DNA from: Xanthostigma xanthostigma
Lineage: Eukaryota; Arthropoda; Insecta; Raphidioptera; Raphidiidae
Length of the DNA: 64,000 nucleotides
Assembly: GCA_963575645.1 (NCBI GenBank)
Contig: OY754465.1
Location: 47,394,401 to 47,458,400, forward strand
Reading direction: 5' to 3'
Shown here piece by piece: positions 4,561-55,431 of the stretch. The position numbers were made by a program, and so were the translations under genes. Below the pieces are notes generated by a model. That model was given only the letters and a program-made list of their open reading frames with translations, was not told the DNA's origin and made no database searches. Each line of letters starts with the position of its first letter. The stretch's first letter is position 1.

Positions 4561-5764
4561 GTGATACATAATATGTTACACTGAACGAGCGAAGACAATG
4601 GATTTCGTTTAAGCTCAATCCCAAGAGCTAGCGAGTGTTGTATCGTTTCAATTCAGTCAAATGTAGGCACATTCAACAGGTATCGCACTTATTTAAAGAC
4701 AGTTGTGAGATACTAAAGCAAAATCTACACCAGTGACCATTTATTATTAATTGTTACACCATATAATTTTATGATAGATTAAAAATCGGTTTTAAACTGA
4801 TTATAGCTATTTAAAGGTTATTATTATGATTATATCTTATATCAAAATTGGTTTTTTAAAATTAAAATGTATCAACATCTAATTTTAAATGTTATAATAC
4901 GTTTGATGTTTGATGGAGAGGTGCCATTTGGATGCTACAGCTTCTTTTGATATATTTTTATTAAACTTAATCCAGAAGCTTTGTTCGAGTTTTAATAAAA
5001 TTTTCTTGTAAATTGTTACTATAATAACATTTTTCAAGTATTTTTAATCAGTGATGTTTTACTTTGTATTTAACTTTCAATAGAGTAAGCGATTTTGGCT
5101 ATTTAAATTTCAACCACGATTTTTAATGTCGTCCAAAAGTCATAGATTGTAGATTATAGACGCTAAACAGCTGAAGTCATCAGGGTGTATAGTTGTTCTA
5201 TTAAATGACCGTATAAATTTAATTCTTGAGATTTAGTTTTTGCTTTAATTGTAGTAGATATTCTTGAGCCTCAATAGAATAAAATGCTGAATTTTAGTGC
5301 CCAACTCTTGAGTTAGAATTGAAACACGACAAATAGCATTATACTCACTAAAGTTTTATTTTGTTTTGTTTAGTTTTGTGTTCTTTTTTTGGCTGTATGC
5401 CAATTAGTGTGTTATTATAGACTGTACTCGTATGTGGGAGTTTTAATTTTATTTTTATGGTCACTATTTTATAGTAAGTTGATTTTACAACGTTGTCTGA
5501 GCATCTTATGCTGTAGTATATTGCTTCACATGTCTATATTACACTTAATTGATATTACTAATTGTATAATAATTATTTGGCCATTCGTTCTGACTTTGTG
5601 CAACGTTAAATTATATTTAAGCCATCTTAATTTCTACAATATACGTCATATTTAGGAGAATATATTTTTTAATGTTTTTCACAAAATGATATTTGAGAAT
5701 CTGAGCTGATTATAATTAAACAACCATTTTTCAACGAACTGTTGTCAAAAATGATTTCTATATA
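4561..5764. other. AT-rich DNA with a short recurring motif
   Basis: The only recognisable piece is near 5145-5190, where GATTATAGACGCTAAACAGC followed by TGAAGTCATCAG recurs at 21740-21785 (inverted), 54340-54380, and in shorter form at 7765-7795 and 59810-59830. It looks like the end of a dispersed repeat. No gene was found. Confidence 0.45.
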
Positions 5765-6986
5765 GTTAAAGCAATGGTGCGTATTTCAATCGGTGGAAAG
5801 CAACTGGATGACTCTTGGTATTTGAGTTCCTGAAGCAATTTGGAAACTTTTTTGTTCAGTACCTCATAACCCCAAAATGGAAGGAATCGGAGAAAAGGGG
5901 GGGGGGGGGTCAAAACGTAAAAAAAAATTGTTTAGAAACCAAATGGAAAGGCGGTAGCATTAAAGTACGTGTACTCACTATTGTTTAAAAAAATTGTCAT
6001 CCGAAACGTGCGGACGGTTTGCGCGAACCGATTTTTTGAAAATCGGAAAAAAAAAATTGTGTCGCAACCGGTTGCGATTTTGAGGAAAATTCTTGTTTTT
6101 GTTCAGAGATGCTGTAAAAAAATTGTCATCCGTTTCTGCTGGACGGATTTTGAGGAATTAAAGGTTTGAGTGGCTAAAATTCTCAATTTTTCACTAGCTT
6201 TTTTCAAACATCATAAAAAAATTGCTAAAATTGTTAAAAACGGATGACGTTTCTTATACATGTTCTCAGAGGGTCCAACTATAATATGTATCAATGTCAT
6301 CCGTTTTTATAACATTTAACCCCATTTTTCAACCCCTTACTTTTGTGCGATATTAATCAGAATATTGAGGTTAGACTCGTTTCTGATGGCATACAGATAA
6401 CGTACACAACCCCTTTAGGGGTTGAAAAATGGGGTTAAATGTTATAAAAACGGATGACATTGATACATATTATAGTTGGACCCTCTGAGAACATGTATAA
6501 GAAACGTCATCCGTTTTTAACAATTTTTGCAATTTTTTTATGATGTTTGAAAAAAGCTAGTGAAAAATCGAGAATTTTAGCCACTCAAACCTTTAATTCC
6601 TCAAAATCCGTCCAGCAGAAACGGATGACAATTTTTTTACAGCATCTCTGAACAAAAACAAGAATTTTCCTCAAAATCGCAACCGGTTGCGACACAATTT
6701 TTTTTTTCCGATTTTCAAAAAATCGGTTCGCGCAAACCGTCCGCACGTTTCGGATGACAATTTTTTTAAACAATAGTGAGTACACGTACTTTAATGCTAC
6801 CGCCTTTCCATTTGGTTTCTAAACAATTTTTTTTTACGTTTTGACCCCCCCCCCTTTTCTCCGATTCCTTCCATTTTGGGGTTATGAGGTACTGAACAAA
6901 AAAGTTTCCAAATTGCTTCAGGAACTCAAATACCAAGAGTCATCCGGTTGCTTTCCACCGATTGAAATACGCACCATTGCTTTAAC
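5765..6986. mobile_element. 1.22-kb foldback element with near-perfect long inverted repeats
   Basis: The arms 5765-6337 and 6417-6986 are reverse complements, separated by a loop of about 79 bases. I found only about three substitutions plus a homopolymer length change (13 G at 5897-5909 against 10 C on the other side), so the arms are more than 99% identical. The outer end is GTTAAAGCAATGGTGCG on both sides and is flanked by TA at 5763-5764 and 6987-6988, the duplication expected of Tc1/mariner-type or other TA-targeting transposons. Identical 66-residue open frames at 5969-6169 (plus) and 6585-6785 (minus) are mirror images, not genes. It has no transposase, so it would be a non-autonomous element. 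Confidence 0.85.
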
Positions 6987-6988
6987 TA

Positions 6989-20239: not shown

Positions 20240-20990
20240 TAAATATTATATTAGACTTGCAAGGTTACCTACAATATAAGATGTTTCACGTTATTTAAAA
20301 ATTAATGAAAAGCATGCTTAACTAATTTCTTTCTCACAGATCTACAGAACAAAAGAACAGCTGATTTTTTTTATTTTCAAAATATTTCCAAAACTATAAA
20401 GTTTAGAAAAAATTGGTTGTCTGTAAAGTCGGTTTACGGACGATAGTTTTACGTGATAACGTATTCCGCTCGAATATCATATTTAATAATACATAACCTA
20501 AATACAAAGCAAAATACATATTTTTAAGCAAAAAAATGTTGAACGCACACTACTCTCTGACGTCACGCGAGAAGAGGGAGTAATGCGCACAAGCCGACGC
20601 TTGGGCCGATCGTGCATCTCTATCGCTTATATCGCGCTCTCGCTTGAGGAACGTTACTCTTTTCGTGTGTGCTGGCGGTGTTTCATCAATTTATAAGACG
20701 TTATCACGTCAAAAAGTTTTACAAAAATAAATAGAATAATAAACCGTTATAAAAAGTATACTATTATTATATAAAAAAACAACGTTATAGTATATATCTC
20801 TTTTGTGCATGCGCCGATTTTCCCCAATAACAATATGGCTCTTCACATTTGCATATCAAACATTCTTCCAATTTCGGTTTAAATCCGTTTGACCTGTATC
20901 GTGTTCACAAAAAACGTCCAGATTTTTTCCAAAAATGTGTCTTTTGGATTCAGGGACCTCAAAACGTTTGTGATGTTGGAATGGTAAAAG
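20240..20990. mobile_element. M-family MITE split by a nested REP copy
   Basis: Left part (to about 20405) carries GTTTCACGTTATTTAAAAAT, GCATGCTTAACTA and GATCTACAGAACAAAAGAAC; right part (from 20716) carries AATAAATAGAATAATAAACC, ATATATCTCTTTTGTGCATG, GCGCCGATTTTCCCCAA and GACCTGTATCGTGTTCAC. The same blocks occur uninterrupted at 32740-33180 (minus) and partly at 28158-29182 and 38250-38590. The REP element at 20406-20715 lies between the halves. Confidence 0.65.
20406..20715 (-). repeat. REP-family copy nested in an M-family MITE
   Basis: From AAAAAATTGGTTGTCTGTAA through TTTTACGTGATAACGTATTC at the left to AAGACGTTATCACGTCAAAAA at the right (ends as in the other REP copies). Its interior has a GC-rich CCGACGCTTGGGCCGATCG and CTATCGCTTATATCGCGCTC piece shared with 54900-54950. 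Confidence 0.75.
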
Positions 20991-25251: not shown

Positions 25252-25288
25252 ATTAACTAACTTTGTTTTATTTTTGTTACAGGTGAGT
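25252..25288 (+). promoter_or_regulatory. Candidate recursive splice site (acceptor fused to donor)
   Basis: A branch-point-like TTAACTAAC is followed by a pyrimidine tract, TTTGTTTTATTTTTGTTACAG, ending at 25282 and joined directly to GTGAGT at 25283. This is the arrangement known for ratchet (zero-nucleotide exon) sites in long insect introns. A second strong donor, GTAAGT, lies 75 bases downstream at 25358, which also allows an ordinary small exon. Confidence 0.5.
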
Positions 25289-25357
25289 TACTTTGATTTT
25301 CACGACCAACTCCTTCAAGAAATTATTTTCCGAAAAGTGATGTGTTTTTACGATTCC
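25283..25357 (+). CDS. Candidate 75-nt exon (25 codons)
   Basis: The interval between the acceptor at 25282 and GTAAGT at 25358 is exactly 75 bases and is open in only one frame (phase 0): it begins VSYFDFHDQLLQ and ends CFYDS. The other two frames hit stops within four codons. Insect ratchet sites are sometimes followed by such decoy or regulatory exons. I do not recognise the peptide. It could be a real internal exon, a recursive-splicing exon, or chance. Confidence 0.3.
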
Positions 25358-25630
25358 GTAAGTTAAAAGAAAAAAAAATAATTTTATGCATTATTTCACG
25401 GTTCGTACTCACAATTTGATTATGATTCTACTAATTCTTTAAAAATAAAAAATTTAAAACAAAACCTTTTTGGAATAAACTAAACAGTGGAAATTTTATT
25501 TGTAAAAAAGTGAGTGCGTGCACTTATGTACGCGCGTTTGAAGTTATACTTCTTATTGATTTAATATCGGCTCTGTGATTTTTGAGATAAGCACCTCAGA
25601 AATTTTAAGATAAAATGGCTGCAATTATGG
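25358..25630. other. Non-coding stretch with a dispersed repeat end
   Basis: The block GTGCACTTATGTACGCGCG then GAAGTTATACTTCTT (25520-25555) recurs near 35518-35565 and, inverted, near 54745-54795. It appears to be one end of another dispersed element. Confidence 0.4.
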
Positions 25631-28157: not shown

Positions 28158-29182
28158 ATGTGTTTTAGGCAGGTTGAAATAATGAAAAAACAGTAATTTA
28201 TCAATGGGTGAATCTGGAATGGTGAGTCTGCCTGAGCATTTGCGGTTATTTCGCGCCTGCGCAGCATATGACATCTGCAAAAAAATATCCCCAAAAAACA
28301 TGTTTTAGACAACTTGAAACTTTTATAATCTTTGAGTTCAGCATTTATATAATCCAGAAATGAAAATGCCAGAACATTTTGTCGGTTATAAAGTAGGGGC
28401 AGAACCCCCCGAAGATATTTTATTAATATAAAACCAAATTTTGGGAGGATGTTTGGTATGAAGATATGAAAAGCTCTATTGTTTTTGGGGAAAATCGGCG
28501 CATGCGCAAAAGAGATATATGCTATAACGTTGTTTTTTATATAATAATGATATACTTTATAACAGTTTATTATTCTATTTATTTTTTCAAGAAAGTTTTG
28601 TGAACTATTTTTTTCTGGCAGATTTTCAATACAAAACAGCAGTTGGTTCTTATTTTCAAAATATTTCCGAAATTATTAAGTTTAGAATTTTTTTTCACGA
28701 AACTTTCTTGAATAAATAAATAGAATAATAAACTGTTATGAAAAGTATATCATTATTATATAAAAAACAACGTTAGAGCATATATCTCTTTTGCGCATGC
28801 GCCGATTTTCCCCAAAAACAATAGAGCTTTTCATATCTGCATACCAAACATCCTCCCAAAATTTGGTTTCAATCCGTTCATCCGTTTGACCTGTATCGTG
28901 CTCATTGCGTATATTAATAAAATATCTTCGGGGGGTTCTGCCCCTACTTTATAACCGACAAAATGTTCTGGCATTTTCATTTCTGGATTATATAAATGCT
29001 GAACTCAAAGATTATAAAAGTTTCAAGTTGCCTAAAACATGTTTTTTGGGGATATTTTTTTGCAGATGTCATACGCTGCGCAGGCGCGAAATAACCGCAA
29101 ACGCTCAGGCAGACTCACCATTCCAGATTCAGCCATTGATAAATTACTGTTTTTTCATTATTTCAACCTGCCTAAAACACAT
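28158..29182. mobile_element. 1.0-kb foldback element including M-family sequence
   Basis: The ends are ATGTGTTTTAGGCAGGTTG and its complement. The arms (about 28158-28620 and 28690-29182) are highly similar and enclose a loop of 70-90 bases. The right arm has about 40 bases, including CGTTTGACCTGTATCGTG at 28880-28905, that the left arm lacks. The inner part of each arm is M-family sequence (GCGCATGCGCAAAAGAGATA and complement). The mirror ORFs at 28119-28301 and 29039-29317 are by-products. Confidence 0.8.
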
Positions 29183-30865: not shown

Positions 30866-31407
30866 ATTTTAACGTGATAACGTCTTATAAATTGATGAAA
30901 CACCGGCTGCATGCACGAAAAAGTGTAACGTTCCTAACGTTCCGCCTGACCCTGTGCGAAAACGGCCCTAACGATTTGGATGAAATTTACTGAAAAGGGA
31001 TTTTGGGGGGCAAAAAATCGTTTTAGCTAGGTCTCATCTCTCGAAAAAATCGTTTTCATACAAATTTTATCATTATAAAAATCAATTTTTTGACGTATGA
31101 AAATACTTAAATATTGTAAGTAGGTTTTGGAATTTTATATAAACAGTGAAACAATTGTTTTCAAAATATTATGACAATTAATCTTTGAGACTTAAAATAA
31201 ATACGAAAGAAAGAAAGTTAAAAAAACAATTATTATTATAGGTGGTGAGTATTTTAATACATAAAATTAACCTAAATTTGAAGCGAAAGATGCAATATCA
31301 TAGATTCGAATTATTATATGTAGAATTTAGGTTATGTATTACGGAATACGTTATCACGTAAAACTATCGTCCGTAAACCGACTTTACAGACAACCAATTT
31401 TTTTTTC
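30866..31407 (+). repeat. REP-family long copy
   Basis: This is one of two long copies (the other is 58230-58852, inverted). From the GTGATAACGTCTTATAAATT end it runs through GCACGAAAAAGTGTAACG, AACGGCCCTAACGATTTGG, AGCTAGGTCTCATCTCTCG and AACCTAAATTTGAAGCGAAA to ACGTTATCACGTAAAACTAT and ACAGACAACCAATTTT. It codes for no protein. The interior is shared almost base for base with the other long copy, so this is the fuller form of the family. Confidence 0.8.
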
Positions 31408-32739: not shown

Positions 32740-33180
32740 AAAAATAACTTTTCAAAATTTTACAATATTTTTTCGTTTTGAGGTCTTTCGAATCCAAAAA
32801 ACACATTTTTGGAAAAACTTTGTGTGTCTGTTAGTCTGTTTGTCCTTGAGCACGATACAGTTCAAACGGATGAGCAGATTGAAACCAAATTTTGGAAAGA
32901 TGTTTGTTACGCAAATATGAAGAGCCCTATTGTTTTTGGGGAAAATCGGCGCATGGGCAGAAGAGATATATGCTATAACGGTGTTTTTTTTTTGTATAAT
33001 AATGGCTTATAATTCTATTTATTTTTTCAAGAAAGTTTCGTTGGAATGTTTTTTTTTAAACTTTATAGTTTCGGAAATGTTTTGAAAATACACAAATCTG
33101 CTGTTCTTTTGTTTTGTAGATCTGTCAAAAATAAACTAGTTAAGCATGCTTTGATTAATTTTTACATGTCGTGAAACATA
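32740..33180 (-). mobile_element. M-family MITE, uninterrupted copy
   Basis: Blocks in order on the plus strand are GAGCACGATACAGTTCAAAC, ACCAAATTTTGGAAAGATGT, TTGGGGAAAATCGGCGCATG, AAGAGATATATGCTATAAC, then TTTTGTAGATCTGTCAAAAA and AGTTAAGCATGCTTTGATTA, i.e. the reverse of 20240-20990 without the REP insert. Confidence 0.65.
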
Positions 33181-34476: not shown

Positions 34477-35211
34477 GTAAAGGTCAATTCACACATGCGG
34501 TACTGTGCGCCGACTGTGCACCGACTGTGTCGATTTGAACTAAATCGATCACCTGAAGTTTCCATTGAAAATGTATTGAATTGCACTATTTAATTCACAC
34601 ATGTAGGTCTAGGCACAGACTGTGCTCTGACTGTGTTGCTTCCGACCGCTCTGAAAGCGATTTCTCAAGGTTACGGTCCGACACGGTAGGAGCACGGTAC
34701 GTGCATAACCGCTCTAGTGAGAACTATTGGAAGGCGACCAGAGGGCGGTCGTCATGTTTCGGCCAGTGCTCGTTCATTTTCGGGTGTCACGATTTTGCCA
34801 CTTTGTGTTCTTTTTTTGTATGTCTGGTTTTACAAGTTTCAGCAGATTGTCAAAATTCAAGAAAGTCATGCGAAAGTATCGAACAAATTGTTCTGGATCA
34901 TCTTTGAGTCGAGCAAATGCTGTGTGAAATTCTCCTTCTTCCTCCCTAGCTCTCCATAAACGGTTAATCCAAATCTTCCTCTTTCTTTTTTTCACCTCTT
35001 CCGTTAATACTAGATACGCTCCGCATGCTATCACCACGTCCTCTTCTCTTGAATCCATGATACAAACCACAAAACACACAGTTTTGTGATACAAACAACT
35101 CACTGTGGCACGTAATAACATGGTTGGTGTGAATATGCACAACACAACACAGTCGGTGCACGGCTACGACACAGTCGGCGCACAGTACCGCATGTGTGAA
35201 TTGACCTTTAC
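34477..35211 (-). mobile_element. Internally deleted PIF/Harbinger transposon
   Basis: Perfect terminal inverted repeats of more than 40 bp start GTAAAGGTCAATTCACACAT and run to GCGGTACTGTGCGCCGACTG on both sides (34477-34520 and 35170-35211). Directly inside are extra CGACTGTG-type repeats. The interior encodes, on the minus strand, the N-terminal part of a Harbinger-type transposase (separate entry). A 3-bp TWA duplication is usual for this superfamily, but I could not fix one because the ends read GTA and TAC symmetrically. Confidence 0.75.
34774..35058 (-). pseudogene. HARBI1-like Harbinger transposase, N-terminal fragment
   Basis: This is a 94-residue frame on the minus strand starting at ATG 35056-35058 (MDSREEDVVIACGAYLVLTE). 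I prefer this start to the upstream ATG at 35145 because the sequence before it is unlike the family. After a basic stretch (KKRKRKIWINRLW) comes REEEGEFHTAFARLKDDPEQ, then VRYFRMTFLNFDNLLKLVKP, which is the conserved N-terminal segment of PIF/Harbinger (HARBI1-type) transposases (in the family: FHTLF..L..D...F.RYFRM....FD.LL..V.P). Family members usually exceed 300 residues and carry a DDE catalytic domain; that part is absent, the frame ending in an AT-rich tail. It is therefore catalytically dead. It lies between the perfect TIRs of its element. ORFs on the other strand here are shadows. Confidence 0.75.
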
Positions 35212-38249: not shown

Positions 38250-38595
38250 TAGATTACTTCTGAACAAGAGAACTGATTTTTTATTTTCAAAATATTTATA
38301 CAACTATACGGCTTAGAAAACGGTGTGTGCCAAACTTTATTATAAAAATTAATAGAATGATAAACCGTTATTAAAAGAATACCATTATAACAAAAAAAAA
38401 AAACAACGGTATAGCGTGTGTATCTCTTTTGTGCATTGCTCCGATTTTCCCTCAAAACAATAGGATTTACATATCAAATACTTTCCGAAAATTTGGTTTC
38501 AATCCTCTCTTCCGTTTGGCCTGTATCGTGTTCACAAACTAACAAACATGGAAACGTTTTTCAAAAATATGTTTTTTTTGGACGCAGGGAACCAC
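38250..38595 (+). mobile_element. M-family MITE, diverged right part
   Basis: GAATACCATTATAACAAAAA, GTATCTCTTTTGTGCATTGC, TCCGATTTTCCCTCAAAACA and TGGCCTGTATCGTGTTCAC follow the M-family order. The left part with AACTGATTTTTTATTTTCAA is also present. Confidence 0.55.
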
Positions 38596-52575: not shown

Positions 52576-54800
52576 TATATCTTTAATTAGTAGGATCGAC
52601 AGTTTTCTTTGTTACGTGTCTTAAAAAATATTCAGTAAATCAATATTCATGAGAAGAAACCATTATGTTCGTACAAAACAATTTTTGAGGTTCAACCAAA
52701 AATCCGACTGATGGCGTTAGTGTAAACGCCAATAAAATAAGTTTCACAAAATAATAAAGTTTTATCCTAATCCAATTGCATACAAAACTTCCACTAACTT
52801 TAATGTTTTACAACTATACACTTCACAAAAGGTTAATAAACAGCACATCAAAAAATAACAAGGGCAACTGTAGATATAGGCAATACTCCACGTTTATAGG
52901 TTAGGTATTATGATCTATGTCGCGGCCATTATTATTTTATCAGGCGAATAAATATTTATACTCTGGAAGTAAGACAAAATAGATTTATACCTGCAGTAAA
53001 CATAATTATGGTCGGTAAATTGAGTTATCGCTATTTTCGGATGAATAATTACTTGAAGAACAAATGAATCGAATAAATAACCACTTACGTTCCGTAAATA
53101 TGACCATGAGTGGAAGGAAACCTTATTTAAACATCAAAATATTATTAGTTAAACATTATCAGTGATACCCATGTCAGTAGCGTTTTTGATTCAGTCAGTA
53201 TAGAGTTTAAAAGCTATGACAGTGTTTAGTAGTTACAAAATTTAAGGCTATTTTTTCTGATTTTGACCTGAAAAGTTGCAAACAACTAAAAAAACTAAAG
53301 AAAAGCGTAATTCTGGTCCGCATCGTAAATTTTTCGTGAATTTTAAAAATTCACTGTTTTCTGATTTTTCCTTACCTAGTTGGATGCCAAATTTCAACTT
53401 TCTAGGTCATCTGGAAATGGGCCAGGTTTTTGATAGATATATACCTATCAGTGAGTCAGTCAGTCAATGATAAAAATGCCAATTTTAGACGTTAATATCT
53501 CAATATCCGTTTGAGCTGTATTTATGAAATTTGGTATTCTAGTTAATTCTGAGGGGTCTTAAATATACCAAATTTCATGTGCTTCTGTTAAATAGATTTT
53601 GAGTTATTAAGGGGTTAAATGGCTCCAAATGGTTCGTGTAATATAACACACGGCTGTTGATGCCTTTTCTGTTTGAACTTGGCTTGACACGCTGCCGCGT
53701 GTCTGGATCGTAATACGCAGAAATGTAAACTCACGACAACAGCAAAGTTCGCGTTGAAAGCGTTATTTCAAGTATGAATCTTTAAAATTATTTTTTGTCC
53801 CCACTAATAGATTATAAGTCCTCACAAAGTACTATCCAGGGACTCTTACTAATGCATTTCCAGGTTCGTAGCAATTTCGGTCCTGTAGAAATCCAGTCTT
53901 TCTGTATCATTAACAGTATAGTAGTATAAATAATACTAAGCCAGATTAAAAGTCTAGCCACGGACATCATTTTGCATAATTTACATAATCTTTACTTAAA
54001 ACGAGAAAAAGCTTATATTCTTACTCTATATTAAATCCAAAAAGTCATAGTAAGTACTATTTATAGTACATGGTATAACACAACGTTGTAAGAACGTTGT
54101 GTTATACCATGTAGAAAAGTTTTTAAGGGATTGTTTAAGTATTACAAAAATAATAATAAAAAAATGTTATACCTATTTTTTTCGACACGTTATGAAAAAA
54201 TGATGGTGAATTTTTACCACGTAAGATAAAAATGATCGGGATGAAGCTGCTCGCCAAACCATGCTTCTTGGACTTTTTGTTAAATATTTTTATTTCAAGC
54301 ACGTTTAAAGACTAGCGCAGCGTGGAGAGAGAGATATTGTAAATTATAGACGCTGAACAGCTGAGGTCATCAGCGTCTATGTGTGTATTAGAAATTCTAC
54401 CAGCCAGCATACATAAATTGACTGATATGAGCTCAAGTTCCAGGGAGTGCTAATTCTCAAAAAAACTTGGAATTAATACCACATTCCAATATTTCCTCTG
54501 AGGGAATGACAGCGATCTAAAATGTAAAATGGTGATTATGACAGATGTCAAGTGATGCTTTATTTCAATACGATTATAGATATGCTTATAAATAAATTAT
54601 ACACATGTAGTGCTAATAGTGAGTTTTAGTGAATATTATTTTGAAAACATTTGTTACTTGTGAATATTAGTGATAATATCTCACTTCAGTCCTTTCATTA
54701 TTTTATTTCAATAAATTATTTGCATGCAAATTACGTTTTAATCACGCCAAAGAAGTATAACTTTTAACACGCGTATATATAAGTACACGCACACACTTTT
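52576..54800. other. AT-rich DNA with no supported gene
   Basis: A degenerate stretch with GTGAGTCAGTCAGTCA (53450-53466) and TTTGAGCTGTATTTATGAAA looks like dispersed repeat DNA. A palindrome, TGGTATAACACAACGTTGTA then AGAACGTTGTGTTATACCA, lies at 54070-54110 (20-base arms). GATTATAGACGCTGAACAGC-type sequence is at 54335-54380. Confidence 0.4.
54070..54110. repeat. Small palindrome
   Basis: TGGTATAACACAACGTT and AACGTTGTGTTATACCA are perfect complements separated by a few bases. It could be a small hairpin element or an operator-like dyad. Confidence 0.6.
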
Positions 54801-54960
54801 TTGACGTGATAACGTCTTATAAATTGATGAAACACCAGCTGCACGCACGAAAAAGTGTAACGTTCCAAAAGTGTCGCGTTCTGCCTAAGCCTGTGCGTGC
54901 AAGCGAGAGCGCATTATAAGCGATAGAGAAGCACGATCGGCGTCGTTCGTTGTATACATT
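54801..54960 (+). repeat. REP-family copy, 5' part only
   Basis: TTTTTTGACGTGATAACGTC, TTATAAATTGATGAAACACC and GCACGAAAAAGTGTAACG are the REP left end; AAGCGAGAGCGCATTATAAG then CGATAGAGAAGCACGATCGG match the interior of 20406-20715. The right end is missing. Confidence 0.65.
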
Positions 54961-55394: not shown

Positions 55395-55431
55395 TCAAAC
55401 TTCATACTTTATTACCATTTTTAGGTAAGTT
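55395..55431 (+). promoter_or_regulatory. Second candidate recursive splice site
   Basis: A pyrimidine-rich CTTCATACTTTATTACC then ATTTTTAG ends at 55424 and is joined to GTAAGT at 55425. It lies on the same strand as the site at 25283. The tract is less pure and the branch point less clear, so this is the weaker of the two. Confidence 0.35.

Follow-up and report, generated by a model that had tools for sequence, protein, structure and literature searches.

A fused splice acceptor and donor as a candidate ratchet point of recursive splicing in a 64-kb stretch of DNA

At positions 25252-25288 of the + strand of this stretch of DNA (64,000 nucleotides, analysed as a whole and hereafter called the window), a T-rich splice acceptor runs directly into a splice donor. 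Is this fusion a ratchet point, at which a long intron would be removed stepwise, or did the two motifs meet by chance? Recursive splicing as such is already well known; intronic ratchet points and cryptic recursive exons of Drosophila were reportedly described by Burnette in 2005, Duff in 2015 and Joseph in 2018.

The fused site and the elements around it

The elements on which the analysis is based are as follows (numbers with a plus sign denote donors downstream of the junction):

25253-25261, + strand: segment with the putative branch point, TTAACTAAC, read from the sequence
25257-25261, + strand: branch-point-like CTAAC, its A at 25260 being the putative branch nucleotide, 22 nt upstream of the G in the acceptor AG
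25262-25282, + strand: T-rich tract and 3' splice acceptor TTTGTTTTATTTTTGTTACAG, acceptor score 10.99
25283-25288, + strand: abutting 5' splice donor GTGAGT, the candidate ratchet-point donor; the 9-mer with the genomic CAG scores 13.6
25283-25357, + strand: candidate cryptic recursive exon, 75 nt, open in frame 0 (25 codons)
25358-25363, + strand: candidate recursive-exon donor TCC/GTAAGT, at +75, with a 9-mer score of 5.4, under that of the ratchet donor
25510-25515, + strand: alternative downstream donor AAA/GTGAGT, at +227, with a score of 8.59, higher than that of the +75 donor; the corresponding 227-nt exon has no open frame

The acceptor-donor junction lies at 25282/25283, where TTACAG is joined to GTGAGT with a gap of 0 nt; the earlier note had given the letters and coordinates of this fusion correctly, and its placement of the junction after position 25282 was confirmed. 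The 18 bases upstream of the CAG of the acceptor comprise 14 T and 4 purines, i.e. the pyrimidines are all T. Only 8 of the 127,960 positions on both strands (its own position included) score as high as this acceptor, and the 9-mer composed of CAG and GTGAGT reaches, with 13.6, the ceiling of the donor matrix, which was not fitted to this species. By the matrices used, both halves of the juxtaposed AG/GT at 25282/25283 are near consensus, as is expected of a ratchet point. A scan of both strands of the 64 kb found CAGGTGAGT once, and the more general motif YAGGTRAGT three times on the + strand (motif starts 14757, 25280 and 55422) and not at all on the - strand of the window. The exact 33-mer of the site is absent from the viral_contigs collection, a result that is uninformative as to the conservation of the core.

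The branch point and the downstream donors were searched for only once the fused site was known. CTAAC at about the distance found here accompanies 1.4-1.7% of the AGs in the window, while for CTRAY the value is 7-8%; a GTRAGT at +30 to +150 is present for 6.5% of positions.

The donor predicted at +75 would bound a short exon and is weaker than the donor that would be rebuilt at the junction, with a score of 5.4 vs 13.6 if the upstream exon ends in CAG, 12.6 if it ends in AAG, and 8.16 after the poor end CCT. For the two former ends this is the order expected for exon skipping (PMC8605326), and with an upstream exon that ends in an ordinary way the candidate cryptic exon is predicted to be skipped. 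The +227 donor, which sits inside a repeat run (25504-25554), scores 8.59 and thus above the 8.16 of the CCT end, so that an upstream exon with such a poor end would lose to it. The openness of the 75-nt exon is weak evidence, since frame 0 is likewise open in 51 of 358 nearby 75-mers, and the candidate exon by itself is no evidence, because acceptor-donor pairs of comparable quality are common in the window (37 on the + strand, 18 on the - strand). Searches with its 25-residue peptide returned no PDB or Pfam match, a query this short having little power.

Score of the fused site against chance

For comparison with chance, both strands of the window were scored with a fused-site matrix of 27 positions (21 of the acceptor and 6 of the donor), whose Drosophila-like frequencies were not fitted to this species. 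The site at 25282 scores 20.5, the maximum of the matrix being 24.8, and is 5.3 bits ahead of the runner-up, which at 15.2 is the best other fused site in the 128 kb of both strands. In sequences simulated with Markov models of orders 1-4, whose training set was the window with its complement, the target score was reached by 1, 0, 0 and 1 matches, respectively, in 12.96 Mb each. Pooled, these 2 matches in 51.8 Mb correspond to about 0.005 expected per 128 kb of both strands (0 to 0.01 for single orders); a longer run of the order-3 model gave 2 matches in 124.6 Mb, or 0.002 per window. The same null underpredicts weaker fused sites: with the target left out, 4 sites with a score of at least 13.7 were seen (two per strand) and 1.36 were expected, so that the Markov null is probably about threefold too lenient.

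A harsher, conditional control keeps the real acceptors of the window and takes into account that GTRAGT follows 5 of its 5944 AGs (target included). The number of fused sites expected by this control is 0.11 after the 128 acceptor-like sites with a score of at least 8, 0.048 after the 57 sites of at least 9, and 0.0076 after the 9 sites of at least 10.98, with one seen in each case; among the 57 sites of at least 9, the target alone runs into GTRAGT. The fused site stands above local chance by these estimates, on a per-window basis and with a Markov null that underpredicts weaker sites. In a genome of several hundred Mb the same rates would give tens to hundreds of chance cores, so the core alone is no proof of function.

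The runner-up is the second fused site on the + strand:

55404-55430, + strand: second acceptor-donor fusion, CCATTTTTAG joined to GTAAGT, with the junction at 55424; score 15.2, much weaker than the first

It lies 30.1 kb from 25282, and 0.49 sites as good are expected per window. No CTRAY was found within 45 nt upstream of its junction and no GTRAGT within 300 nt downstream, and the fusion at 55424 is probably due to chance. The idea that 25282 and 55424 form a chain of two ratchet points was rejected, because the second is no better than chance and comes without a branch point or a downstream donor.

Recursive splicing and its rivals

The site at 25282/25283 is best explained, in our view, as an ordinary ratchet point of recursive splicing within a long intron of the + strand, with a probability of about 0.7, a figure that expresses our judgement and was not computed. 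What lies at the junction is a set of sequence elements, and from these we infer the following course of splicing. The acceptor at 25282 and a downstream donor (that at 25358 or, less likely, that at 25510) would be defined together as a short cryptic exon, and the upstream exon would be joined to position 25283. This joining would rebuild a donor from the last bases of the upstream exon and GTGAGT, which would outcompete the donor of the cryptic exon, so that the cryptic exon and the remaining intron would be removed in a later step and the mRNA would keep no nucleotide of either.

Such a course has a close counterpart in flies. According to PMC8605326, fly ratchet points are recognised via a cryptic exon of variable length, about 50 nt, which is then spliced out, the rebuilt ratchet donor normally beating the donor of the cryptic exon, and cryptic recursive exons are generally out of frame. 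With the Drosophila intronic ratchet points (PMC8605326, PMC6110457) the present locus has in common the T-rich acceptor, the AG/GTRAGT fusion and a short exon downstream whose donor is weaker. With the expressed recursive exons m1 and m2 of Ubx (PMC8605326) it shares a short exon that opens with a donor and whose length is divisible by three. The exon proposed here differs from both: it is 75 nt long and in frame, whereas the cryptic exons of fly ratchet points measure about 50 nt and are generally out of frame, and m1 and m2 measure 51 nt and are conserved throughout in flies.

Outside Drosophila the nearest comparison is provided by the fused sites ("RP-sites") that were computed for mosquito, bee and beetle, where they lie on the sense strand of long introns (PMC2773006). 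Table 2 of that source gives, for the large introns of four insects, 0.5-2.2 RP-sites per 100 kb of the sense strand vs 0-0.12 on the complement, i.e. 4 to over 20 times more on the sense strand, as obtained with a human matrix at an 80% threshold, unlike in this analysis. Those sites were counted with that other matrix in annotated introns of more than 50 kb, whereas the intron is here a proposal. If the region is intronic, the published sense-strand density renders a genuine site several times more probable than a decoy.

The earlier note had taken the fusion as the mark of zero-nucleotide exons in very long introns of insects. As regards the mark, this was right in kind, being in line with the cited Table 2, but a single core is no proof. 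As regards the zero-nucleotide exon, the acceptor, the abutting donor, the branch point and the downstream donors are all present, but under the current model recognition in flies proceeds via a short cryptic exon that is later spliced out (PMC8605326), and the site would not simply be a zero-nucleotide exon.

The main rival of the ratchet point, which we consider unlikely, is a chance fusion or a decoy, in which a T-rich AG merely happens to precede GTGAGT in DNA that is intergenic or not spliced. The window is indeed rich in good acceptor-like and donor-like sites, both strands carry weaker fused sites somewhat in excess of simulation (the 4 besides the target vs 1.36 mentioned above), and the searched ORFs yielded no recognised gene. 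It is the target itself that fits this explanation poorly, given its lead of 5.3 bits over the next fused site, the co-occurrence of the fusion with a branch point and with a downstream donor, and an expectation of about 0.005 or less by the Markov null and of 0.11 or less by the conditional control.

Less probable still is that 25283-25357, with its 75 nt or 25 codons starting with GTGAGT, is an expressed cassette or recursive exon kept in some mRNAs like the Ubx microexons. Its length keeps the frame, frame 0 is open, and it lies between a strong acceptor and a donor GTAAGT; flies do have expressed recursive exons, although these number fewer than 50 vs more than 500 intronic ratchet points (PMC8605326). 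The open frame is shared by the 51 of 358 nearby 75-mers noted above, the peptide matched nothing in PDB or Pfam (its 25 residues being a low-power query), and the donor of the exon itself scores below the ratchet donor. A more specific version, to which we assign a slightly lower probability yet, would make it a regulated expressed recursive exon, perhaps in a non-Drosophila insect, in which the host protein would gain 25 residues or not, depending on whether TCC/GTAAGT or the rebuilt ratchet donor is chosen.

If the ratchet point is real, it would add one more example with a recognisable cryptic exon, possibly from outside flies, the source of the direct evidence, and the 64 kb without a recognised gene would become oriented as intron of the + strand. 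The case further suggests that raw sequence allows a joint reading of branch point, fused site and cryptic-exon donor, an approach useful for scanning insect genomes.

Strand signals and other elements of the window

The ratchet-point reading places the fused site in an intron of the + strand, and the composition of the window was analysed in this respect. Self-repeats make up 28% of the window, and the fused site lies outside all repeats detected within it. In the unmasked sequence T exceeds A on the + strand by 0.033 (block-bootstrap sd 0.008; 0 of 5000 resamples at or below zero), with no clear skew between G and C (0.006, sd 0.008). In the presumably neutral part of fly short introns there is a T excess of 1% and a C excess of 7% (section 3.3 of PMC10946897). 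Half of the fly pattern is thus present (T over A, but not C over G), and the base skew lends weak support to + strand transcription; as a proof of it the skew was rejected, because the window lacks the C excess seen in fly short introns. Runs of at least 6 nt are more numerous for T than for A (187 vs 141), and those of at least 10 nt number 9 for T vs 15 for A.

Acceptor-like sites are more numerous on the + strand than on the - strand (for scores of at least 10, 21 v 6; at 9, 37 v 20), with an asymmetry that fades lower down (70 v 58 at 8; 124 v 108 at 7). GTRAGT donors reveal no strand lean (39 on the + strand v 36 on the - strand). Both observations have parallels in large insect introns, where acceptor-like sites lean in the same direction, to the sense strand (Table 4 of PMC2773006), and donors are likewise without a lean (Table 3).

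Of the 186 stop-free stretches of at least 58 residues, 118, including all 99 of at least 70, were scanned against Pfam, and none gave a match above the curated cutoff (18 of the 99 longer ones, scanned separately, gave sub-cutoff matches at most); exons in shorter open stretches would escape such an ORF-based scan, and its empty result fits an intron and intergenic DNA equally. Neither a flanking exon nor a host gene was found in the window, and pattern and protein searches of viral_contigs and a literature search for one repeat, made to identify the host from its repeats, yielded nothing usable. The proposal of the earlier note that the window is part of one long + strand intron is plausible and has indirect support. 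The excess of T and the asymmetry of the acceptors agree with it; a C-over-G excess like that of fly short introns is not seen, and the window may equally be intergenic.

One candidate for an upstream exon, 998-1096 on the + strand (acceptor 11.05, donor 7.71, two open frames), was rejected because it lies inside a GC-rich stretch with inverted-looking ends, a probable DNA element. Its two peptides have no Pfam match. For one of them PDB returned nothing, and the PDB matches of the other are two designed helical repeat proteins (E-values 1.4e-6 and 0.02); the match, of 20 residues, is taken as compositional. The element itself spans approximately 651-1240 and includes 998-1096; its GC content reaches 62%, compared with 33% in the window, and its ends appear by eye to be inverted copies.

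Several other elements were recorded in the window. A long near-perfect palindrome at 5763-6988 consists of arms of 575 and 572 nt, which differ by three substitutions and one 3-nt gap, around a 79-nt spacer; possible readings are a recent fold-back element, a source of hairpin RNA if transcribed, and an assembly artefact. The segment 16259-16330 on the - strand resembles a tRNA (Rfam tRNA, 39.6 bits), with the anticodon read as CTT (Lys) and with some non-standard stem pairs; ARAGORN, run with the bacterial code, makes no call there, and the segment is possibly a pseudo-tRNA or the head of a SINE. An ORF of 123 residues at 34774-35145 on the - strand presumably resembles the N-terminal part of PIF/Harbinger transposases, its only Pfam match being below the cutoff and to a different family. 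Related and partly fold-back repeats occur in several copies and orientations at 28158-29182, 20298-20871, 32847-33163 and 38266-38399. Finally, a dispersed repeat of 79 nt is found at 2673-2751, 30867-30945 and 54799-54877, all three copies containing CGTGATAACGTCTTATAAATTGATGAAACACC and two of them showing 87% and 91% identity with the third.
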